Shown in pieces: positions 12,582 through 55,901 of a stretch of DNA of 64,000 bases. The notes beneath the pieces were generated by a model. It saw only the letters and a program-made list of their open reading frames with translations, searched no databases and had not been told where the DNA came from. The DNA comes from Polytrichum commune (taxonomy: Eukaryota > Streptophyta > Polytrichopsida > Polytrichales > Polytrichaceae): assembly GCA_950295325.1 (NCBI GenBank), contig OX485805.1:33715501-33779500 (forward strand). The letters are read 5' to 3'. The position numbers were made by a program, and so were the translations under genes. Positions within the stretch are counted from its first letter, which is position 1. Each line of letters begins with the position of its first letter.

Positions 12582-15500
12582 ATGGAGCAAATGGAACTAG
12601 AGCATTTGAGTTCCGAGGAGGTGAGTTATTGTTGTAGTTTGCAATGTGATGTAAACTTAATGTGGTATTAGGGGTTTTACGTTAAGGGTAAACATATTAA
12701 CATGATTCTACAATGCAGGGATCATCACTCTCTGAAGCGGTATTCACGGAAGACGAGGACGATGTTGGCATTGAGGACATTGATGTAGATTGCAGCGGGC
12801 TTAGAAGGGAGGAATGGCTGAACATTCCTGTGATGCTTGTAAACGCGACCGGACAAAATGTGGCAAAAGGAATTTGCCGTAATGTCAATCCAATGGATTG
12901 TGTGGAAGACAAGTGTCTTGGAGAAGATAATGTGGGTGTGCTTATTATGGAGCCATTGGAGGGAATGATGGACATGGGATGGGTGTTCTCCTTACGAATG
13001 TGGCCCCTTACTTGTGTTTATCACCAGAGGTATACTCTTGCACACCACCTCCTAGTGAGCACACGCAGGTTGCGTATGCAAACCACATTGCTAGAAAGAC
13101 GGAAGAAAGATGGGAAGAGGGCATATGTCACATCACGCACGACCTCCCAGAGTAGACCGACAAAAAAATCCCAGATTCTCAATAATAATAGCATCCAACA
13201 ACTATCAGCCAGTGAGTGTTGTGATAGGGAGTGCACTAGATATTTTCCCAGGGAAGAGGCACTTGCGCTATGAACTGAGTTTTACACTTGTTCTCCACGG
13301 ATGAGACATGCTAAACAACTCGAGGTCCATGGCCAATTACATGTACTACCTGGATGCTCAACGAAGGTCTTTACCTTGTGTGGTCGCAATGTGTGTGAAA
13401 AAACATGGAGACACATATTTGTCGTCTCCAAAACGACGTTCTATAGGAACCGTTCAGAATTCAAGAGCGGTATGCGTCCACGCGATCATGAGAACCTAAA
13501 CATGAAACGGAATCGAATATCCACCCAACAAGCTACTGCAACACTTTCGACTTTATTGGAAGACAAAGCAGATATGATGCCTCACAAGGCTTGCACATTG
13601 CCAAATGGCACACGTGTTGTTGAAATGGTATTGCCTCGCGGAACAAAATGGAAGAAATTTCTGGTTACAATCAATGAGGTAAGCATTCGATATGACCCAA
13701 TTATCCGCTTTGTATGTGTCGGTCAACCACGATGTGTGTTTGTGGGTATTTAATAGACACGAATGGGTAATCATTAACATATCATATACGATATGGATCG
13801 AGAAGCATGTGAAGTATTATTAATGTTAAGTTATTTCTATATGTGCAGGTTAATGAGAAATGTGGTGTGCTCCCAATCTCTCTTTCAACTTTGAGCAAAA
13901 TTCGGAATACCTACTTTAAGCACTACATAAAGAAGAGGGTTGGTGACAATTTTGCTCGTTGTGGGAAGTGTGATTCGTTTTCCGCGATTATACTTCAACA
14001 TGTGAAAGGTTCAGCTGCACACACAGGGTTTTCGAAACAATTGGAGAAGCACCAAGCGCAGCAAGAATCAGCTCGCAATGCATACCGTTGCATGAGGGCT
14101 CTTTCAATTGAGCATCCCCGAAAGGTGTTGACGATTATTCACGACAAAATGGATCATGGTAAAACCGCATCTCCTTGCTTTGCCTCCAAGAACAAAGATA
14201 CCGATATGTTTACAAAGCTACCACTTTCTGTAATAGGCATGATGGCACATGGACATGGAGATGAGAGATATGCCCACTATGCACTGGACATGTACCCTGG
14301 AGATTGCAACCATACTGTAGGGTCATTCGCGAGACTTCTACGTGATTTGGAGGAACCACCAATGTCATCATCCCGGAGTCTTTTTCATGGTGCTGGGCGG
14401 TCACCTCTTTATCGTGTTGTTCTTCATGGGAGCGAAATATGTTTGTAAGGGTTACGAGCCCCACCCACGGAGCCCATACCGGCAATTCCTCTTCCACCCA
14501 TTCTGCACGTTCAGCTTGATAATTGCTGGAAGGACAACAAGTGTAGGTTCGTAAAGGCATTCTGGTCTATGCTCACGGCGAAAGAAATACTCACGGAGGT
14601 ACATGTGTCTTATCTATTGGTTGGCCACACCCATGACGACATCGATGCATCATTTGGAAGATGGAGTATGGACCTGCGCGAACACGACTACCCCACTATC
14701 CCCCTTCTCATGAAATCATACATGGATATGGAAAAGGTTCCTGTCATTCCACACAGGATAGAGGAACTTCCAGATTGGAGATCATACGTTAGGGAGCATA
14801 TCCCAAGTGGTAAGGAGAAACTCATTGGGCACACAAAGGCTCAACAATTCAAATTCTATGTCCGAGATGATGGTTGGCTTGTTATGCAATACAAAGTGCT
14901 TAGTACGCATGAGGAGTGGTTGCCCAAAGACGGTGTGAAGATGTGGAAATCCAATATAAAAGGGGAGCCCTGTCTTCCATCCGGGGACCCCTTTCCTGCA
15001 CCACCGCGCGGTATGGCAAAACTGGAGGAAGTGGTTGTGGGACTGCAAGGGTTCATTGACTATTGGCAATCAATATGTGACCATGACACGACAAGAGCAT
15101 ATATGGGTTCACACATGCATATTTTGCAGTACTGGATAGGGGTGAAGGAGGCATTAGAGACACCTCTCAGAAACGTATACACTGCTGGGCATGCATTATG
15201 GGAGGGATTCTGGCCACGGAGTAGGGTCGAAGCAGATGCACATCCATTCATGCAGAATGGAGAGCTTTGGGAAGAGCACCAACCGGACGACCATTATGTT
15301 GGTCCAGCAAACCTTCGTCCTGCAGCTGCTTTCCGCATTGCGGATAATGTGCACGAGGGGCATATGCTAATATTGCGTCCCCAAGAACAAGATATAGGTA
15401 GACCCATTTGGGTTTGCCGTGCTTTGTCTGGACCGAACTTGGCGGTCACGGGAGAGCATCCACGTCAAATACTTGTACAATGGTTCACTCCCACTTCAAC

Positions 15501-15831
15501 CACCAGAGACCTATCAAAGAAATGGAATGGCTGGGACTCAAATCCTAACTTCAAGTGGAAACGTGATTTGAAGTACTCCGTTCCCGACTGGCAGCCAATC
15601 GATTGCATTTTGGCAGCTTGGCCTCTGCCAGAACATGAAGATGTGGAGCCCTTAAAGGTTACAATCCCAATAGAGCAAATTGGATTTGCCAAAGATAATC
15701 TTCGACGTTGTTCAACAGCTGAGCGTGGGAACAGGGTGGGTGGGGTGGACGTCGAGGAGCCTAGTGGGCAACAGGGAGGCCGTGGACATGGAACTGGTAG
15801 ACGTAAGTCTGGGGGACGCGCATCCCGGTGA
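12582..15831 (+). pseudogene. Decayed DUF7869-type transposase-like gene
   Basis: A small first exon (12582-12620, ATG, acidic) splices in frame to an exon from 12719 that is rich in acidic residues. Later coding blocks are 13301-13679 (CGRNVCEKTWRHIF segment) and, after a GT-AG intron at 13680-13848, 13849-15831. The last block carries the family hallmarks: HDKMDHGK near 14140, HVQLDNCWKDNK near 14500 and GHTHDDIDASFGRW near 14623. These acidic residues resemble an RNase H/DDE-type active site; that is my inference. The copy is broken. It has an in-frame TAA at 14446-14448 between the first two hallmark motifs, a frame change near 13370 (SMANYMYYLDAQRR in one frame, LCGRNVCEK in another), a TGA at 13302-13304, and ambiguous frames at 12980-13150. 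A basic Gly/Arg-rich tail ends the 3' block. It is probably a fossil of a multicopy mobile family. Confidence 0.75.
13680..13848 (+). other. Intron inside the DUF7869-type pseudogene
   Basis: GAG|GTAAGC at the donor and TGTGCAG|GTTAATGAG at the acceptor keep the frame (INE joined to VNEKCGVL). A retained intron means this copy is not a processed retrocopy. Confidence 0.8.
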
Positions 15832-18755: not shown

Positions 18756-21700
18756 ATGGAGAGACACTCAAGTGCACAGTTTCGTGGGGCATCTGCAACA
18801 CTAGTGATACTTTTGACGCTGTTTAGCGAAGGTTAGAGCCCTCACAAACAAAGAATTATTGTAATCGGCTTTGCTAATGATACTTCGATCACAAGTTCCA
18901 CAAAAGTCCAATTCTTCGTAATTTGTTCATTAATTATTCTAAAGCAAGCCTTTGAATCTGATCCCTGTTCACAGCTTATTTATTGAAATCGCCACAGATT
19001 GACGAAGCTCTATTTACTCGTGCATGTTTTTTGCTTTTGCAGGTGTCTCAGGTTTGGGCACACAAAATTGGGAGGCTGTTTCACAGCTTCCAAGAGTGTC
19101 GACGGCAAGCAGACATGTGATGAGAGCGGCCAAGCTGCAGAGCTCCCTCAACAAGGTTAGCTCAAGCCCATTTGATGCCACAAGAATCATGAGCGTCATA
19201 TAATACACATGGTTGATCAATCGATCTGCAGAAAGTATCTGTTACAAATATAATTATGAATGATCCAACAAATATGATCAATTAATGTGCAGTTTATACA
19301 TTACTGTGGCATCAGCATGCACATGATGCTTCAGAATAAGTTAAGCTACATCATCAATCTGTATCTCTATCTGTATGTAAGATGCACCTGAATCGAGTTC
19401 AGAACCAAAGGAAGGTTTCGGGTTTAACTTACAGGCTTCATCGAACAAGACGATGGCTGCAGTTACTACTTTTGCTCGCTACCCACAGCTGGGACAACTA
19501 GCAGGCTGCCGCAAAACCATTGGTAAATCCGAAAATATTGCATCGGCAACAATACTTGACATATTATTACACCTACGACAATCAATTTTATCACCTGCAT
19601 CATGACCCTGTAGGTCATCACCCACATGACACCAGTTCGCCATCATAGACTATGATGACCGAATGATGGTCTATAGGTTCCATCCAAACCAGCCGCTGAT
19701 GCTGCTGCTGCTGCTGCTGATGATGATGATGATGAGTACCGCATCCTGCAGGCGGCACTGACACTGGCCAGAGCGTGTGTGCTAATCATACACAATGATC
19801 GCTCATAAGCCTACCTTAAAGTTGGAAATTTCAGTTCTGGGAATCTTAACCTTGTCAGAAATTGTGGGAAAATACATATGTTTCACCATGACCTTGATGA
19901 GCACCTGCAATTATATTTGAACATGTAACCACAAAAAGCTTAGCATATGGTCCGCACCAGGCTGTAAAGCACCGCAATTTAGAGTATGTGAGCAGACACG
20001 AAGCAGCACCAAATGGCAAATATAGCTAATTTCGTAGGCAACTTGATGATTTTGATGTCCACAGACTTCACAAAGAACTCACAAGACTATAGTAGAAAGT
20101 GACTTATGACAGATCAACACACCTTTGATCAGCACTTGAACACCTACAGCCGGTTGAGAACATGAATGTACTCCAGAAATAACATTTTAAGCCTTCTTGA
20201 CGAGTCTGCAAAATTTTGCGTGGTAGCAGTTGTTGAGATTAACTTAAACTTATGGTGATCTATTGGCAGATGAAGACGTGTTCATGCCTGCCGAAACTTG
20301 GAGGCACTCCGGACCACAGTGGTGTACCGATGACGTCTGCCTTGTGCAAGCCATGCTCGCCAAGAGCCCTCTCATCATCATCGACCACGACATCGACGTT
20401 TCTGGCAAATTTTCTCAACCGTTTTTTTTAGCAGATCATTGAAGCATCATCTGCGGCAATTTGATTTCTCGTCAGTTTGTTGTTCTGGATCTTCTTGCAT
20501 CTTATTATCAAAATTTTGACCGTTACAGTATCCCTGCAAAAAGTGAGGCAAACTGCAGTAATCAGTATATATAACATCCTGTAACTTGTTGGAGCTTAAT
20601 TCAAGAATGAGTTCCTCTGGACGTCTGGAACTTGAGAATTTCTAATGAACCACTGACCTGTTGAAATGTCGTGTAGACACCGTGCGAGCAATTAACCCAT
20701 GATGCACTCTTTTGCATTTAATACGAAATTCAAGCTCACTCGCACATGTAGTATTGGAACTGATCTCCTTTGTAAGGAGAATGTGAATCTAAGATTTTCC
20801 ACGGGCTAATTGACGGTCCAAATTCATACAGTTCTTCTTGTGAAACTAGCAACCTGCATGATCATGGGTAATGCAGCAAGTTGGAGCCCAAGAGTCGGCT
20901 TTCTACTGGATTCCTCTGGTTGTGCCAGTAAAACAACGAATTTAAACTATCTTGCGAAATATCGACTAATTTTGTCTGCATCATCAGAAATTAGTACAAA
21001 ATGTGATGGAGAAACTAGAGGGTGATTGATCACTCTTCTCCTTGTGATGAACCTCATGTCATATAATACATACCTTATGTAAAGCAGCAGTTTGCTGCAG
21101 TAGTCGAATCCGCGCCCAGTGCTCTGCAAACACCAAAGTATCTTGCGAATTATTGTCTAATTCTGTCTGCAACATCAGAAAGTGGCACAAAATGGGAAAA
21201 TAATCAGAGGTTGATCACCCTTCTCCTTGTGATGAAACCTCGTGTCGTGTAATACATACCTGTTGTAGAGCAGAAGTTTGTCGCCGTAGTGGAATCCACG
21301 CGCACTGGTCTGCTATAACAAACTATCTTGTGAATAATTGACTAATTCTGTCTGCAACATCAGAAAGTGGTACAGAATGTGATGAAGAACCTAGAGGGTG
21401 ATTGATCACCTTTCTCCTTGTGATGAAACCTCGTGTCATATACATACCTGTTGTAGAGCAGAAGTTTGTTGCCGTAGTGGAATGCACGCCCACTGGTCTG
21501 CAAACAACAAACTATCTTGCGAATTATTGACTCATTTAGTCTGCATCATCAGAAAGTGGTGCAAAATGTGATGAAGAACCTAGAGGGTAATTGATCACCT
21601 TTCTCCTTGTGATGAAACCTCGTTTCATATCCATACCTGTTGTAGAGCAGCAGTTTGTTGCAGTAACAGTGGAATCCACGTCCAGTGCTCTCTAAACAAC

Positions 21701-24700
21701 AAACTATCTTGCGAACTATCGACTTTTTGTTTGCATCGTACTCGGAAAGTGGTACAAAATGTGATGAAGATGCTGGTATATGCACTGTCCTGGCGCAGGA
21801 ACTTTGCCTCTTCCGGAGGTGAACACGAAGGTAACCATCCTGGGGAAGTGCGTAGGGCACTATCCTTGTATGATCGACGGCATGGGAGCTGGTCGGATCT
21901 TCGTGGTGGGTATTGGCGGGCAGCTCACTCTGCGAGACCTTGAGGTTCGAGGTGGCTATTGCAACGAAGGAGCCGCTGTATTGGTGACCGGTGTGGGCAG
22001 CACCAAGCCCAGCTCCAGTGGCAAGCTCTTGGCTCTCAACGTGCTCTTCTACAACAACACCGCCAACACTGTAAGCAGCTCAGAAAGCTCAGACATACTC
22101 CTCCTTTTCGACCCTTTTTTCTTGTCTGTATAACCTAAGTAGGTCAGTCAAATGGCCTGCCTGCACAGTTTTTCTACAGCCCAGCTTAATTAACATAGTA
22201 CTGCTGCGGTGTGTGTTTCTGGAGGGTATAGATAACTGGCAGCCATAACCGCCGACAATACTAGGGTCATGTGCAGGCAGGGAGGTGCAAGTGGGGTGTG
22301 CTAAAAGGATCTGCATTAGTAGTGATGTCAGAAACGTTGCGTAGGTGATAGAGTTTTTGCATTGGGTGAATACATGCCTTCATTGCTCTCACGTGGATGC
22401 TCAAAGCCACGTGGTGACATAGATCTTCCCCACGGCAGACACCATTTGGTCAGCTGAAGGTCAAGGGTGCAATCGGTGGGTTTGAGGTAGCAGTCACCAC
22501 GTTAGTTCAGCAGGATGATTAGCTCCTTTGAAAAGAGAGGGGTGAAAAGCATCAGATTAAATTCCTAGAGTCAATTTGTGAAGTTGCCTAAGATTGCAAC
22601 GTTTTTTTCTCATTTCTGTGTGCAATGTTGGTGTTTGGACAAGAGGTCAATGAAAATCATCAGTTTCAGGGCTTCTCACTGTGTTCGTCTGCTAACCCTG
22701 GGTTTGAATTAGGGCAACGGAGGTGCAATCTTAGCAAAGGCGGGAGGAGCTGTGCATGTCCGCAGCTGCGTGTTCGATGAGAACGAGGTACTGGGCTTTT
22801 CGGGACCCTCCGCACATCCTCAGTTGAGATCATCTTGTGATGTATTTCAAGCGAATTACGAGTCACCTTATTTTTTACATCCAAGCACTCTCCAGTCTGC
22901 AAGCAGAAAATTAAGGCAGATATTATATGACCAATTCTTGCAGGCGCTGATAATGACCTACCTGGATTTCTTGCTATAATAAATCTCCCTGTGTAGGCTG
23001 CGATGGGAGGCGCCGTCTACGTGGGCGGGAGTGATGACAGTGACCCAATGCAAGCAGGGTGCAGCCTCAGCAGCTGCGTCACCATCGTCAACAGCGCCTT
23101 CATTGCCAACTGGGCTGACTATGGCGGAGCTGTGTATGTAGACGACGCCACCCTCGACTGTGCCCAAATGGGAGGCGGTAAATTTGAGTGCACCACATGC
23201 AGCTTCTCAGAGAATTACGCAGTGGTGAGCGTCCCCATTTCGTGTTGTAACCTGAGAAGCTACAAAACATAAAAAGTCTCCAGATCTAGCGAGGTAGAGA
23301 TTGAATTAGCTGAAGTGGACATGTATTCCGCTTCATGAAGGCCCAACCAAACATAGTTTGAGCTCAAGCTTAAGATTACAAGAATATGGACCTTACATGT
23401 ACCTAGATTAGTGGAACTTTGGTTCCTCCTCTTATTTTAATCGTTTTCAAGTTCAAGCCAAAACTCGGCCCTGTAATCATCGAACTTCATGTAAATTCTA
23501 CAAGCTCAAGATTAGGCTTGAACTTGAAAATCAATCCCAAGAAGTGGGGACCAACCTTGAGAGAAAGCTCAACCATCTTGGGCACATATAAGTAAGGGCT
23601 AAAATTCTTTCACCTTGGCCCACCCAACTTGCAAACTTGAGAGCTTGAGCTAAAGTTGTTTGCGGCCACCAGCCCTATGAGCATGGACTAGTTGTGGGCA
23701 GTTTCTGAGAAGGTTTTTTTGAAAGAAGACTGAAGTCTTTTGCTTCTGTGGGTGAATTGATGAATGTTACGAGCATGGGTATCTTGGTGTGCAGGATTGT
23801 GGAGGAGCTCTCTTCTTGGCTTGGAAAACAACGGGTGCAATCGGCCATGTGAAGTACAGCCGCTTCATGAACAATACGGCTCAAGTATGTGGCATGGCAC
23901 CCTTCTTCTTCTTCCACACCGTAGCATTCGGAACTCTACTGGGGACCACCTTGTGCAGCGGCCTGTAATAAGTATAGATATGAGACAGCATGAATCCCGA
24001 AAGAATGTGTCCTGGTAGGTAACCCAGAACATATTCAGAAATAGTCCATCTGGATTAATCCAGCCGCAACTTGACGACAAGCGTGGATGTCGAGGTGGGG
24101 AAATATGTACTTTTTAATGTGGGCTGGTCCAGATTCATATAAATCAGTGCCGACATAATAGCACTCCTGATGATGATATTCTTCAGCAGTCCAAGGTCAC
24201 AGGATTCTTCCAGTTTTGGCAATGTCATTGGACTCGTTGTGCCAGATAGCTGGTTGGATCTGCAATTTTTGAATCCAAGGTTCTCGCTGCATTTAATTTC
24301 TAGGCTCATCAGAATATTTTTTTGTACTCTTGCACAGGCACCAGGAGGGGGAAGCGCTGTGCAGATTCAAGGAGGCAGGCCCTGGACTTCCGGCGTGGAG
24401 TTCATCTCCTACAAGAACAAATACTTTCAGAACATGGACAATGTGAATTTATATATCTCTTCCCCCTTTATACTTTGCAATGAGATTATATATCTGATTC
24501 CCCCTTATCTCTACTACAAATCTCTTATGAGTTGCAACCTTTGATGTTAATATATGTGTGTGACTTTGATTGCACCTGCAGGAAGTTGGAATTGCAGTGA
24601 AATCTCATGCCAATGCTACTTTCATCCATGACTGGTTTCTGGTACGTTATTGCATAAGGATATTGAAGCCCATTCCCTGCAAGGGGGGAAATCAAAACGA

Positions 24701-27662
24701 GTAATTAGAACCTGATCAAGCAGCTCTTGCAAGAATCATAAGGCTTCGTACTATGTTGAGGCCAGGTGCCTTCCGCCGGATCAAACTGTGGGTTCTGAAA
24801 CTGGTTCTTGAGCAGGAGGATGAGTCATAATTCTGAGGGCACTAGCTTTGAGCTTGCAGATTGTGGACTTGTATTCAAGCTGAATGATAGTCGATGGTTT
24901 TGTTCTGGTTTTAATTCATGGCTTAATTGCACAATGCAGAGTCGCAACGAAGTAGCTTGTGCAGCCATGGGTGACTGCCATTTCTGCCCAGATCAAATGG
25001 CAGCATGGGTAAGGACTCCAAAAGAATCTTGGAGTTACATTTTTAAACTTATTCCTCCATTGTCTTTGTCAGCGGAAACATGTACAGGAAGTCATCTTGT
25101 GGCAATCAGACATGAGTGTGTTTAGTTAGCAACTATGATTTCTTCTGATAACCTCTACTTCCCTGAGCCCAATTCTTGCAGGCCCCCATGATGATGAGCA
25201 GACATGTTCCAGCTCCAGCTCCATATTGTATGTTCGTTGCATATGTTTTCAAGTCTGCTAATTATCAGTTTCCCACGCACAAAATGAACATCTTCAGGGG
25301 TCTGGTCCTACCAATTAAATGCAACATCTTGTACACAAGCACACAGATTAAAGTCTTTTGATATTGTTCTGCTCCTGAAAGGAGTGTCATCTCATCCACC
25401 ATTGCTTGGCAGTGCTTGAATGTCAAGGCTCATACACATTAGTGTTTGCATCAAAATAGACCTTCTCACTTGAATCAGTGTCTGTTGGGTGACTTGTTCG
25501 CAGCGGACATGATGTGCCCTGCTGCTCCACCTCCCTTGTGTGAATGGCAGCCTCCTGAGTGCGAACCATGGAAAGCTCCTATGTTACCTCCACCAACACC
25601 AGCACCAGCACCAGCACCAGTGCCCATGGTTCCCCCACCTCCAGTCGTGATAATAAAACCCACACCAGCACCAGCACCAGCACCAGTGCCCATGGTTCCC
25701 CCACCTCCATTCGTGATAAGAAAACCCAAACCGCCACCAGCAGCAGTCGCACAAGATGCACCTATGGCTCCTCCTCCACCTCCCACTTTCATGGCTCCAG
25801 CTCCAGCTCCTGCCATGATGCCCTGCATTTGCAACTGTTCAGCTCCAACTGGAGTTGCATATGGTGATCCCCATTTCTACGGGAAGCACGGTGAGCATTT
25901 TGACTTTCATGGCCGGAGCGGCCGAGATTATTGTGTGGTGACTGACAAAGAGTTCCACATCAACATGCATCTGTTCCAAGGATTGCAAAGGCATACTACG
26001 GTCTGTATGCAATCATACTCGCCTGTCCACCATATTGATTCTGGTCTAGGGTTTAGAGTTCTTAATTAGAAACTCAATACTGTTCTTGGGTATTAATCTC
26101 TATATTGTTGATTATTGTTTGAACATGTGATAGCTTTCAATGTCTGAAGGTATTATTACAAGGATATGCTCAGTAGAGAAGCTCTGTGCAGTTCTTTTTT
26201 ATCGTCAAATATGAAACAAGAGAACATGTCTTGACAAGCCTTTTGGCAAGTGCAGTTTATGTCCATGCTCGGGGTGTTGTACAAGGATGATCAAATCCTG
26301 ATCAATGCACAAGCCCACACCAATGCAAGTCGCCTCGCTGCACAATGGGCTGTTACGCTCAACAACGTGAGTACTCTGAGTCTGTTTGGTGCATTATGAA
26401 ACTGAGTTCTGGAACCATGAAACAATATTAAGAAATTCCAGCATCTCTGAAACCTTGGAATCGAATCCTGGCGCAGTAAAAATTCATATGCAAGTAGATT
26501 GGATCACATATGCAATTGGCCAGAGAAGGTGAGCAGCTGAAAATTGTGCAAACAGTTTAGAGTTGTGATAATACAGTTCTAAACCTGAGCAAAGTGAAGT
26601 GATTAAGTGGGTTAGTAAATTTCAAATGCTAAAATGCTAGGTTATCTGCATTTAAGTTTTCTGGTCTGAAATGAATGTTGCAGGTGGAGCTGGCAAAGGG
26701 AACATACAGGAATCCTACCAATGGTCTCAACATTACAACCAGGTCAAGAGAGGTTCAAATAGTTGCACCCGGATCAATGGACTTGATGATCAGTGTTATT
26801 CCAAAGACATTTGGTGCCCATGGCTCAGGAGCCAACTACGTGAGATTCAAATCATATGAATGGCATGGAGACAATCAAGTGCAGTTAGTTTGGAATTGCT
26901 TGTTATGAATATATGTAATTAATCGTCCAGTGTGATGAGGTTGGTTTGACCTTCCTCAAAATTATCCAAGTGGCCCCAGCTAGGTATGCAAGTTTCTGCA
27001 ATTCAATGGATTCCAAGTTCAACCTTGCTGTCATCTCACATATTTCACTCTTGCCTGCAGCTCAATCTCAAGATCGTTTACCTGGATGCCACACCTCGTG
27101 TGCATGGACTCTTAGGTAAAGTGGCACCTTCACTGTCAAAATCTCATACTCTGCCCACTGCAATGTGGAATGTCTGGAGACTGACATGATGCTTGGTATT
27201 TCTCAGGTCAAAGCTATCAAGAAACAAAGAATACATATAAAAAGCTTCATGATTCACATCAAGTGGGGCCAAAACGTGCATGGTCAACGCTGCTCGATGG
27301 TACTGAAGATGACTACCTCACCACCAGTATTTTGGCTCCAGACTGCAAGTTTTCCATCTTTGAGGTACTGATTTAGCCCACCTGATTTGCCCAAAAGATT
27401 GACAACTGGAATGCTTACACCAAACAAGTGTTTATTAATGTGGTGGATGGTAATAGTGTGCAGGTTTCTCTCATCACAGAACTGAAAAAGTTTTAAATGC
27501 ATGCAGGATGGATCCTCAATTGCAGCAAAAGTTCACAAGGTGCTTGTGAGGTCTGCACATGGTTTACTTCCATTCTTAGCCCATGAGAAGCATGTGGCTG
27601 GAGGGTGCACTGCAGTTGGAGACCATTCAATCTGCCAAGAGGAAAAGGAACACATGGGGTGA
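18756..27662 (+). CDS. Secreted beta-helix plus root-cap/vWD-like domain protein
   Basis: Eighteen exons join in frame to about 829 residues: 18756-18831, 19043-19155, 19435-19522, 20270-20404, 21799-22070, 22713-22787, 22997-23224, 23795-23884, 24338-24442, 24582-24641, 24940-25008, 25182-25227, 25504-26000, 26256-26366, 26684-26839, 27061-27115, 27207-27364, 27507-27662. The N-terminus (MERHSSAQFRG, then a hydrophobic stretch ending in LLTLFSEG) looks like a signal peptide. Residues about 95-440 contain VTILGKC, IDGMG, LTLRDLEVRGG and repeated GGAI/GGAVYV/GGALFL motifs, typical of polymorphic-outer-membrane-protein-like right-handed beta-helices. A proline/alanine-rich linker (about 465-560) leads to GDPHF (about 573), FDFHG, FHINMH, LNLKIVYL and a late APDCKFSIF, matching the plant root-cap (vWD-like) domain. 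The product is probably extracellular, in cell wall or mucilage; no enzymatic role is visible. Exon 4 appears to use a GC donor. Function is unknown. Confidence 0.85.
20405..21798 (+). other. Probable GC-AG intron (intron 4)
   Basis: Exon 4 ends CGTTTCTG|GCAAAT and exon 5 begins after GGCGCAG. Joining them gives IDVSGTLPLPEVNTKV, which reads smoothly in phase 1. The nearby GT (20398) would leave the wrong phase for the only well-supported downstream frame. The GC donor is an inference from frame continuity. Confidence 0.6.
20940..21780. repeat. Intronic tandem repeat, unit about 170-200 bp
   Basis: Four diverged copies and a partial fifth begin AAACTATCTTGCGAA (near 20945, 21138, 21310, 21500 and 21703). 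Each carries TCTGCATCATCAGAAA, AAAATGTGATG, TTCTCCTTGTGATGAA and GCAGTTTG. The array fills the second half of intron 4. Confidence 0.85.
23343..23665. mobile_element. MITE-like inverted-repeat element in intron 7
   Basis: The left end CCAAACATAGTTTGAGCTCA is an imperfect inverted copy of the right end around TTGAGCTAAAGTTGTTTGCGG. The interior repeats GAGCTCAAGCTT-like words and has no coding capacity. A similar word cluster at 28960-29110, in the intron of the next gene, may be a relative. No clean target duplication was found. Confidence 0.45.
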
Positions 27663-36953: not shown

Positions 36954-39186
36954 CAGGCAGTTCTCCTCGTCCATTGTGTGGTGCGAGCACATCATCTACG
37001 CATAATGACCAGTGTGGGCCACCCAACAAATTTTAGCAAGTAGCGTCAAGAACTTTCACCATTTCACTTTGATGGGCATTGAAGCAACCTCGGAGTCGAC
37101 AAGCATGTTGGTTGCGTCGACATGCAATGAGGAAGCTCTGACTTGCAAGTGTAGATGAAAAATCAATGGCCTCTTGACATGTTAGTTGATGATTGTGTGA
37201 GGTCGGAGGCTAATTTTAGTGGCAGTTAACTGCTAAAACCATGACATAGTGCACACTGTGTGAACAACCATATGAGGCTTGTAGTTAGTGGAGGCAACAT
37301 AGTTCCTCATATTCCGGTTGGTAAAAAGGTCGATCAAGGAGCTGTAACGGTCACAAAATCGGATAGTGCAACAAGGCCCTAATTTGACATGTGCCATCCT
37401 AGCCCCATTACACCCATGGTCCCCCACCTTTTTGGAACGGTGGGCAACAATGAAGAATGTCGGTGCAATGGCCTCATCACCACCACCACGTCTTTCATTA
37501 TATATAGATGATGTATGCTAGGTATTTGTTAGATGTTTGGTGTAGTTTCTTCATGCAAGTTTTGGTGAGGGGCTTGGGTATTTGAGTTTTTTCAAGTATT
37601 CCATATTTAGATTGTTAGTACGACAAGGGGGTTGACTTTCCAACCTTTTTTATTGGAGAGCTTCTATAGACTATGAGCGGATTATATTAGTTGTGTTTTT
37701 CTTGGATGGACTGTTCTTTGAACCGGTCATGGTAATAAGTATATTCAATGAATTGAGTATTGGTATGTTGGTACGGGGGAGAAGGGGGGGGGGGGGAGTA
37801 GGCTTCTCCAATGAACATTGTAAGGTCCAGTCATAGGCGAGCTAGGCATGTGCGAGTTAGGCAAGAACGGGTATCTTACATGTATAATTTGAACACAAAT
37901 CTCAATTTATTTCAAGGCCCACATAAGGTGTAAGGTCGAGGCATCCATAGTCAACCATGTCCATTTAACCGCTCACTAGGGTAAGTGTAATGCCAACATG
38001 GATGAGGTCTGTTGTGGTCTACATTTTTTAGACCAAGGGAGTTAAGGTTTATGTGGTGGTGGCTTGTGATCAATTACCTCATATAAGTTTTGATGACTGT
38101 CATAGCCAATAATTAGCATTTAGATGAGCAAGTATGGATTAACTTATAGATTGACCCTGTGTTCTAATAAACTTTACTGCTTCAAAAATTGTAGCAATTT
38201 CCATGTTCATAACTTTTTTAATAAAAAAAAGTGTATCCTCCTTAGGATTTGTTTCTCTTTGCGAAAAAAAATAATCCCCCGCTAATGCTCCTTGTAAACT
38301 AGTGCAAACTCTCTTATTTTATCAGCTATAGATGCTTCAACCTTAAGACGGACTTAATAATGTTGTGTTCCAATTATTGGGGCACCTCTATAAAATATTC
38401 TTTAAGCATGTTTTTGGGTGAATATTCACCCTGAGATTAAGCAATGGTTTACTCAACAATCTTTATGTAGATTGTGAACCTCTTTTTCTTTTCGATAAAA
38501 AAGGCTTAAAACTTAAATACAAAAGTAAGTTTACATTAGGATTTGGGTGCCAAAAACTTGGGGTCCAAACTCAAGATTGATTTCTCAAACTAGAAGTATT
38601 TATTTGAATGAAGACTGACATAGTGATGCCATGGCACTAGGACCACTTCAGTTTTCATACTTTGGACCGGACCCTAGTAAACCCCTTGGGTCCAAAATTT
38701 TGATCTTGACCAATGAGATTGCTCGATTTTGGAGTAAACTTTGGTCTTGGACCCTAGTGTGAACCCAGCCTATTAAGAAGGTTCGTATCCAGGCTTCACC
38801 AACAGCAGGCGAAGATGGATAAAGAAAGAGCGAGGCTGATTGGGCTCTCCAATTCGCCCTTTATCCGCCTCCTATCCCTGTTCCCACGCTCCCCACGTTC
38901 CCCGAGCTCCCAGTCTCGGGCTGCGATTGGCGTAGGGTTTGGGAACACGACGAGGGAGCTTTGGGAACGCGCTCTGACCCGGCGAGACGCCGGGTATGGA
39001 CACCTGGAGCTCGTCTCTCTCGCTCCACCAGACACACTCCCCTTCCGCCATCGCCATTCCTCATCAAGCACACGCTCACTCGCTTTCAATTGCACTCGCA
39101 CTCTTTCCTCCTTCCCTCAGATCTCCAGCTCCAGACGCCGAGACTCCATCTTCGGAGGTTTTTTTGGAGCCGTTTGAGCTGCGAAA
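36954..39186. other. Intergenic DNA and psaG upstream region
   Basis: From 36954 to about 38760 the DNA is AT-rich without a supported gene, with a G13 run near 37784. From about 38800 to 39186 GC content rises sharply and CTCC/CGC-rich sequence leads to the psaG start, consistent with a proximal promoter and 5' untranslated region. The 101- and 120-codon frames here on both strands are by-products of GC richness. Confidence 0.5.
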
Positions 39187-41117
39187 ATGGCCGCTTGTGC
39201 TGCAACTTCCCGGGTGGCCGCAGGCGTCCCCAGCCTGTGTGTGAGCAGGAAGGCTGTGAAGGCCTCCGGCGTAGCGCAAGCCAGCTTTGCAGGTCTGAGG
39301 GCAGGCAACAAGGTGGACTGCTTGAGCATCAGCCGAAGCTCGTTCGGAAGCCAGACCGCCATCGCCAAGTCAGCTGCCAGGACCACCTGCTTTGCGGACA
39401 CTGCCCTCACCATCAGCCTCAGCACTGGAGCTCTCCTGTTCCTCGGCCGCTTCGTCTTCCTCCCCTTCCAGAGGGACAACGTGAGTGTCTCTCGATGCTC
39501 CGCTCTCTCTCGGTGCTTGTGCTTCTGAATGCAGGCTGCGTGGATGGCGCACGAAAGCTCGTCATGTCTAATTACGCCTCCTTCGTATTAATTTCACCTG
39601 TATATGATGATGGGTATATTTTGACAAACCATAAGTAGCCCCCCTCGATCGAGAGTTCCGTAGTAAGTGTGCATGGACTGGATAAGGCTCCTCAAAAAAA
39701 TATCCTTGCATTCAGAGGAACAATGTAAGTCCTTAGACTGAGCGCTTCGGCTGATTTCTTGAGAATGAAATCCGTCATTTGCTTTGCCTAAGTATGTGTC
39801 ATCTGGCTGTTGTGAATTCCTCCCCTCCAGTCGGACAATTTGTTGAAATATCTCTCTCCGGGAATTAGTGTGCCCTTCTGGACTGCCACGGTGAAATTTT
39901 CTTCTCGCTGAAGAACCTAGATTGCTGTCTTGCGGGAGTTTTGCCTATTGCACTATAATATGATTTGGTAGAATATGATGTCAGTGTCGTACAGTGCTGA
40001 GACATCACCTACTAGCTGTCAACGTGGAACTACAAGGAACAATAGAACTCGAGCAGAACTCCAGCATGTCCGCTTGTAATATCTCAAGTCTTAGAAGCTT
40101 CTACTGAAAGTTTTCACTGGAGTCACTCTTCTCTTCGACGTTCATACAGCTTAACGTTTTGCTGTCAGTGCCATGGCGCTTCCGTGTAGTGCAGCGATTT
40201 TACATTCGTAGACAAGCTTCTAGCTGAGCAGAAAATGATATAGAAGGGAGTCTTCACGGGACTTCAAGGTCGGCGCAGTGTCCTCGAGTTGTACCATTTC
40301 GAGAAAATGCACCATACGCGATTGATGTTTTGCAGATTTCATGTCGGATAGTCCACTCCACGATGAATGAAACGGAGACACCGTATACCCCCCTTGGTAT
40401 GTGGAGGTTTCCGTTTGTTGATCTCCAAGATTCGAGTCGTATCTGCAGTATGCTGACATTATCATTAGTATCATCATGACACGTTTTGGACATCGAAATC
40501 CAGTGCACTTGGTGGAGTTTTCGTTTGTTGATCTTCTCATATCAAGATTTGAGTCATATGTGTAGTATGTACATCATATCCTTAGTATCATCATCTCACG
40601 TTCTGGACATTGAAATCCTGTGCAGTATGTAGATCTTTACGTTTATTGAGTCTTCGTAAATCCAGAATTGAGTCATATGTGCAGTATGCACATCATATCC
40701 TTAGTATCATCGCCTCACGTTTTGGATATTGAAATCCGGTGCATTAGGTGGATGTCTTCGTATGTCAATCTTCTTAAACCAAGAACTGAGACATAGTTGG
40801 AGCAGTATGCACATCATATCCCAAGTATTATAATCACACATTTGTCATATTGTAATCTGGTGCACCTGGTGGCGTTTACTCACAAAATTACTGGGGGTGG
40901 AATTGTGCAGGTGTCGAAACAGGGTCTGCCAGAGCAGAACGGAGTGACTCACTTCGAGGCTGGAGACAGCAGGGCGCAAGAGGTCGTGGGAATGTTGAAG
41001 ACCAACGACCCCGCCGGCTTCACCCTCGTCGATGTGCTCGCCTGGGGAGCCTTGGGCCACGCCATCGGATTCTTCATCCTGGCCACCGCCAACAACGGTT
41101 ACACCCCCACTTTCTAG
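39187..41117 (+). CDS. psaG: Photosystem I reaction centre subunit V (PSI-G)
   Basis: Two exons, 39187-39480 and 40911-41117, join at CAAC|GTGAGT and GTGCAG|GTGTCG to 166 residues. The first about 65 residues are Ala/Ser/Arg-rich with few acidic residues, a plastid transit peptide. Mature sequence begins near [13 protein letters not shown]. Two membrane helices are visible: about 70-93 ([18 protein letters not shown]) and about 138-158 ([19 protein letters not shown]). Between them is the stromal loop with [17 protein letters not shown], diagnostic of PsaG rather than its paralogue PsaK. PsaG is a green-lineage PSI subunit that helps bind the LHCI antenna. The context AAAATGGC supports the start. 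Light regulation is expected but not read from the sequence. Confidence 0.95.
40405..40865. repeat. Tandem repeat in the psaG intron, about 115-bp unit
   Basis: Four diverged units start near 40407, 40517, 40634 and 40755. Each has TTCGT-TGT-ATCTTC, GAGTCATATGTGCAGTATG, ACATCATATCCTTAGTATCAT, CACGTTTTGGACATTGAAAT and CCGGTGCA words. The last copy runs up to about 45 bp before the 3' splice site, so its end approaches the branch-point region. Confidence 0.85.

Positions 41118-44351: not shown

Positions 44352-55901
<11,550 letters not shown>

Follow-up and report, generated by a model that had tools for sequence, protein, structure and literature searches.

An 18-exon gene predicted to encode a secreted protein with a Pmp-type beta-helix region and a C-terminal root cap (DPH) domain

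The window, by which is meant the whole stretch of 64,000 nucleotides that was analysed, carries a gene of 18 exons that splice into a single frame of 829 residues with zero internal stops, starting with an ATG at 18756 and ending with a TGA that closes at 27662 (Table 1). The exons, end points and open frame were all as given in the original prediction. Sixteen of the 17 introns were of the GT-AG type and one, intron 4, was GC-AG; this intron also contains a 189-base unit in 4.4 tandem copies (84 % matches; window 20944-21770). A Pfam scan of the full protein with E values up to 1 returned matches to Chlam_PMP, Root_cap and Beta_helix only.

Table 1. Positions of the gene and its parts in the window
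Feature	Position	Strand	Residues	Basis or remark
Whole coding region	18756..27662	+	829 aa	Splicing; intron phases equal to paralog (17/17)
Exons 1-6	18756-18831, 19043-19155, 19435-19522, 20270-20404, 21799-22070, 22713-22787	+		
Exons 7-12	22997-23224, 23795-23884, 24338-24442, 24582-24641, 24940-25008, 25182-25227	+		
Exons 13-18	25504-26000, 26256-26366, 26684-26839, 27061-27115, 27207-27364, 27507-27662	+		
Exon 1, signal-peptide-like N-terminus	18756..18831	+		Hydropathy; hydrophobic stretch from about residue 12 to the start of exon 2
Exons 2-3, N-terminal region of low conservation	19043..19522	+	30-92	Paralog comparison
Exons 4-11, Pmp-type beta-helix region	20270..25008	+	93-437	Chlam_PMP and POMP_repeat over cut-off; motif test; paralog constraint
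Intron 4, GC-AG donor	20405..20410	+		Splicing
Chlam_PMP best stretch, across intron 5	22038..22739	+	218-237	Pfam; coordinates hand-derived from exon table
Ala/Pro-rich linker (all of exon 12, start of exon 13)	25182..25865	+	438-560	Composition
DPH/root-cap domain (remainder of exon 13, exons 14-18)	25866..27662	+	574-829 (256 aa)	Alignments; Pfam
Pfam Root_cap segment, across intron 16	27082..27361	+	715-777	Below cut-off; coordinates hand-derived

A search of the genome (408 Mb) with each half of the protein identified one further locus where the two halves follow each other as in the window, on one strand (L016, contig C4; here the paralog). Its 18 exons splice to 1046 residues. Intron phases were equal at 17 of 17 introns, and 12 of the 17 intron positions fell at the same aligned residue; three were off by one and two were off by 8 and 14, the latter in a poorly alignable N-terminal region. 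The two proteins were 47 % identical over 809 aligned codons and had 25 cysteines in common, out of 26 in each. In the helix region identity was 54 % (335 codons; pN 0.30, pS 0.67), while the DPH region gave pN 0.34 and a saturated pS of 0.79 (271 codons). These values suggest that both domains are under constraint in this pair, although the argument is a rough one because pS is high to saturated (0.67-0.79).

The comparison with the paralog also bears on whether two adjacent genes have been misjoined, a beta-helix gene ending at about 25008 and a root cap gene starting from about 25504. In favour of such an error, low-complexity, Pro-rich sequence adjoins the junction, and exon 12 was 12 % identical to its counterpart, with no clear constraint (17 aligned codons; pN 0.73, pS 0.72). 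However, the paralog, located on another contig, retains the exons, phases and order over this junction, three cysteines early in exon 13 (Cys 457, 465 and 472) are common to both proteins, and exon 13 itself contains no signal-peptide-like sequence by eye. A misjoining is, on this evidence, very unlikely. Because the diverged paralog keeps exons, phases, cysteines and domain order, the gene design is probably old rather than a product of two genes or a faulty splice. The single secreted-type protein with both domains that had been proposed is thus upheld as one gene by the shared order in the paralog.

The N-terminus likely contains a secretion signal, the strongest Kyte-Doolittle peak over 19 residues (1.59) starting at residue 12; the signal peptide of the original prediction was recovered in this form, as a prediction from hydropathy only. 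The region that follows, up to the start of the helix, was 23 % identical to the paralog, with pN (0.62) close to pS (0.69) and therefore no clear constraint. The Pro/Ala-rich linker between the two domains was present as claimed, with 39 % Pro, 31 AP, PA, SP or TP pairs and no SPPP runs over its length. The spacer of the paralog, by contrast, is extensin-like, with 35 runs of SPPP or longer, unlike the AP-rich spacer of the window copy. Seven N-glycosylation sequons were counted in each of the two proteins. A 66-base repeat (2.3 copies, 92 %) occupies window 25592-25746 within the linker, and spacer length may change by gain or loss through tandem duplication.

The helix region was recognised in the window copy by Chlam_PMP (PF02415; E 1.6e-8, 34.4 bits against a cut-off of 20.6) and by the NCBIfam model POMP_repeat (TIGR01376; E 8.3e-7, 28.6 bits against a cut-off of 15), both over their cut-offs, while the Beta_helix match was sub-threshold. 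Motif counts in residues 93-437 were compared with 20,000 shuffles. GG[AS][AVILM] occurred six times (five of these being strict GGA[VIL]), whereas shuffles averaged 0.29 and none reached six; FxxN occurred five times against a mean of 0.72, a count reached by four shuffles. In the helix of the paralog, FxxN was also found five times (reached by two of 20,000 shuffles) and GG[AS][AVILM] three times, a weaker excess over its mean of 0.29 (40 of 20,000). The GGA[VIL] repeats reported earlier as a beta-helix signature are therefore above chance by shuffling, as well as being matched by two profiles over cut-off. Along the window helix the GG[AS] and FxxN motifs mostly alternate. Gaps from FxxN to GG[AS] were 4-6 residues by hand count, and gaps from GGA to FxxN were 14 (with a second GGAV skipped) and 17, the others being 6, 23 and 27.

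Pectate lyases and GH28 enzymes have the beta-helix fold, and on this shared fold the helix could be read as a catalytic or once-catalytic carbohydrate-active domain of pectate-lyase-like type, which the root cap part targets to the wall. No pectate lyase or GH28 match was found in Pfam at E values up to 1, and a profile of the helix searched against PDB sequences had as its best match Rhombotarget A (E 3.8e-4), by its name no enzyme, followed by a bacterial pilus-like protein (E 0.29). An enzyme of this kind is accordingly an improbable explanation. Relatives of the helix were also sought outside the genome, with two weak negative results: 54 matches to two short peptide patterns in GTDB contigs, none of which was confirmed, and no tblastn match at E 1e-3 in plasmids. 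A profile search of the own genome with PF02415 gave no matches and missed the known copy too, and so is uninformative.

Alternating GGA[ILV] and FxxN motifs are shared with the chlamydial Pmps, in which the commonest gap from FxxN to GG[AS] is 4-5 residues (57 % of cases) and that from GGA to FxxN is 14-18 (PMC11166332, PMC10715098). The first kind of gap is similar in the window copy; of the second kind, the gaps of 14 and 17 fall inside the chlamydial range and those of 6, 23 and 27 fall outside it. The chlamydial repeats are described as coils of a predicted beta-helix with the conserved side chains facing inward (PMC11166332, PMC10715098). Because the chlamydial coils have partly matching gaps and inward-facing conserved side chains, the GGA/FxxN motifs themselves are probably structural by analogy, and any binding would sit on the loops. 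The autotransporter barrel and the Pmp middle domain were not matched in the window protein by Pfam at E values up to 1. Outside Chlamydia, PF02415 has been reported in more than 100 species (PMC10715098), and almost 200 of the proteins carrying it are not bacterial (PMC11166332). Since the family occurs widely outside Chlamydia, kinship with or origin from that group is not implied.

The C-terminal part begins with the GDPHF...FDFHG motif, with DPH at residue 574 and 256 residues from there to the end. The Pfam Root_cap match to the full window protein (E 2.6e-4, 21.5 bits) was under the cut-off of 27 bits, and the domain searched alone scored 24.6 bits. The paralog passed both Pfam cut-offs, with 35.2 bits for Root_cap and 39.9 bits for Chlam_PMP, and reached 25 bits for POMP_repeat against 15, whereas the window copy passed for Chlam_PMP and not for Root_cap. 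Pfam, to which the original prediction had pointed, thus recognised the helix half over cut-off and left the root cap half of the window copy below it. The window domain aligned with four Root_cap loci elsewhere in the genome over approximately 215 residues at 29-30 % identity (E 8.8e-12 to 1.1e-10), and in a five-member alignment (A1) its identity was 46 % with the paralog and 28 % with all three Root_cap members. As judged from these alignments, the C-terminal region is homologous along its whole length to recognised Root_cap proteins. The root-cap-type domain that had been claimed therefore stood, on the motif, on its homology to the Root_cap loci and on the paralog, which passes the cut-off. 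In viral contigs, 48 matches to two short peptide patterns yielded no confirmed relative of the DPH domain, a weak negative result.

The same domain had also been called vWD-like. A profile of five domains searched against PDB (E up to 10) matched only repeats of the IgG-Fc-binding protein FCGBP, at E 0.0058 and 0.1, over a start motif of about 21 residues; we take these repeats to be vWD domains. PF00094 (VWD) gave no matches for the window domain, the paralog domain and one Root_cap relative at E values up to 10, in a search where HMMER filters discard most matches above E values of about 0.1. In a further search PF00094 was silent everywhere, controls included, and that search is uninformative. 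ITI_HC_C was touched at E 0.03-0.05 by two of three domains and, in another scan, by one of five. The likeness to vWD is therefore retained as a weak lead from sequence, carried by the FCGBP match to the start motif, and lacks a Pfam VWD match.

The fused pair belongs to a larger set. At least seven Root_cap matches were found in the genome among 13 candidates scored, which with the window and paralog genes makes at least nine loci with a DPH-type domain. These other seven loci resemble the window domain in their GDP[HR]...F[DY]FHG start, in a G.LGQ.YQ segment and in being alignable over the domain length. They differ in that helix queries found no match at any of the seven, while it is the window copy that lies below the Pfam cut-off. 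The start motif is GDPHF in the fused pair and GDPR in the seven others. A signal-peptide-like start was seen no more than 1 kb upstream in five of the seven, with short sequence of Gly/Ser-rich, Ala/Lys-rich or other composition after it, and none was seen within 1 kb upstream of L001 and L006. The genome also contained one AUX_IAA locus (two neighbouring matches) and four SAM_LFY matches. Together with the DPR-type root cap set these presumably fit a land plant, perhaps a bryophyte; the placement in early streptophytes made in the original prediction is not borne out, the genome having the AUX/IAA, SAM_LFY and DPR-type matches of a land plant.

Four of the Root_cap genes form two close opposed pairs, L004 with L005 (C4:15,866,005-15,870,493) and L003 with L007 (C5:28,162,648-28,164,394). 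L004 and L005 have, by eye, the same 262-residue translation, which suggests a very recent inverted duplication.

The DPH domain was described by Prochazkova et al. (2024) as a C-terminal region of approximately 280 residues that starts with DPH or DPR and forms a beta-sandwich, followed by a root cap segment of approximately 60 residues near the C-terminus (PMC10796529). It is reported there from streptophytes only, with over 2,100 hits in 199 genera. In AnIBP, from the ice alga Ancylonema nordenskioeldii, the DPH domain directly follows a DUF3494 beta-solenoid with a TxT array (PMC10796529). The window protein resembles AnIBP in its predicted signal peptide, its predicted N-terminal beta-solenoid and its C-terminal DPH domain, of 281 residues in AnIBP and 256 in the window protein; the root cap segment lies towards the end of this domain and scores below the Pfam cut-off in the window copy. 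It differs in having a Pmp-type helix where AnIBP has the DUF3494 solenoid, and in its linker, AnIBP being described as having none.

This order of solenoid and DPH raises the question of whether the window protein binds ice or protects against freezing, the Pmp-type helix providing the surface that contacts ice. The expression of three wheat DPR domains is also reported to shift on cooling (PMC10796529). However, TxT motifs numbered zero in residues 93-437 of the window protein and one in the helix of the paralog, against the array of AnIBP, no DUF3494 match was found with Pfam in the window protein at E values up to 1, and AnIBP as described does without a linker (PMC10796529). Ice binding is on balance very doubtful here.

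Root cap domains have also been reported from an extensin and from a secretome. PtEXT30, a chimeric extensin of poplar, is comparable to the window protein; it combines a signal peptide and extensin-type repeats with Root_cap (PMC5073881). It differs in its length of 467 residues, and Root_cap is the sole Pfam domain given for it, with no beta-helix family reported. The secretome of Penium contains root cap proteins, one in a fraction labelled EPS and another detected via an N-glycosylated peptide (PMC6027541). In the titles and abstract openings of the open-licence literature searched, no description was found of a Pmp-type helix and Pro-rich spacer joined to a root cap/DPH domain. The parts are known and a joining of solenoid and DPH is published (PMC10796529); the Pmp-type helix before DPH is a variant.

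We somewhat favour the view that the gene encodes a secreted protein of the cell wall or surface mucilage matrix. Consistent with this are the single open frame, a paralog with the same design, the constraint on the pair, the sequons, the Pro-rich spacers and the secretome context of root cap proteins. Counting against it are the window Root_cap match under cut-off, the unlike spacers of the two copies and the little constrained 92 N-terminal residues. A structural or adhesive role in the matrix is most likely, and enzymatic or ice-binding roles are unlikely. The product would be a secreted, cysteine-rich glycoprotein of the wall or surface mucilage. Its beta-helix would form a short stiff rod, whose outward loops could bind wall polysaccharide or a partner. 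The spacer may be O-glycosylated on hydroxyproline, arabinogalactan-like in the window copy and extensin-like in the paralog, and could then keep the rod off its anchor and mingle with the wall. The DPH domain, which in relatives is a beta-sandwich, would link copies together or fix the protein in the matrix.

The original prediction had allowed for a sensing function. The protein would then be part of a receptor, with a helix that recognises fragments of microbes or of the wall and a DPH domain that relays the signal. That suggestion is all that speaks for it. No kinase or other signalling domain was matched with Pfam at E values up to 1, and among 19-residue segments the six that are most hydrophobic start at residues 9-14, at the N-terminus, and at residue 112, in the helix region. 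Since the top hydrophobic segments are N-terminal or at residue 112, no C-terminal membrane anchor stands out. A sensor of this type seems unlikely.

The beta-solenoid, the glycosylated spacer (where there is one) and the DPH domain might represent an old streptophyte matrix chassis in which the solenoid is swapped by lineage, by analogy DUF3494 in the ice alga and the Pmp type in the window gene, and in which DPH assembles slime or wall, as a possible counterpart of the vWD domains of animal mucins. This is a tentative proposal that we place on the unlikely side. Root cap (DPH) proteins are widespread among streptophytes (PMC10796529), and little is known of what they do. An intact old copy with a rod-like domain offers a testable handle, in which the rod would point to binding or spacing, the spacer to a wall glycoprotein and the DPH domain to a shared assembly part. 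If the architecture holds in algae and bryophytes, it would tell of the role of root cap proteins before there were roots.

Candidates for further fused copies were rejected. The helix query from the paralog gave 22 matches, consisting of exons of the two genes, six short stop-bearing ones, plus two weak matches at E 0.96 and 9.6, and the 18 genome matches of the paralog DPH query were the two fused genes, known Root_cap loci and one match at E 0.65. Four of the six short matches (L022, L023, L024 and L025, on contigs C3, C2, C3 and C4) belong to a repeat family whose longer pairwise matches are 93.6-98.3 % identical over 389-3046 bases. They carry a captured piece of the paralog with stops, to which exon 7 contributes 82-83 bases and a stretch crossing from intron 7 to exon 8 a further 118; identity with L016 is 90-95 %. 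This looks like capture of a gene fragment by a mobile element.

Elsewhere in the window, two frames on the plus strand (13813-15828) matched DUF7869 at E 6.7e-4, below cut-off, and at 1.8e-34, and possibly represent a mobile-element gene. Frames on the minus strand (44819-51724) matched GXGXG, pyridine nucleotide-disulphide oxidoreductase and class-II glutamine amidotransferase domains and most likely belong, as exons, to a single large gene for glutamate synthase. A weak photosystem I PsaG/PsaK match (E 0.0019, below cut-off) was located on the plus strand at 39178-39525.
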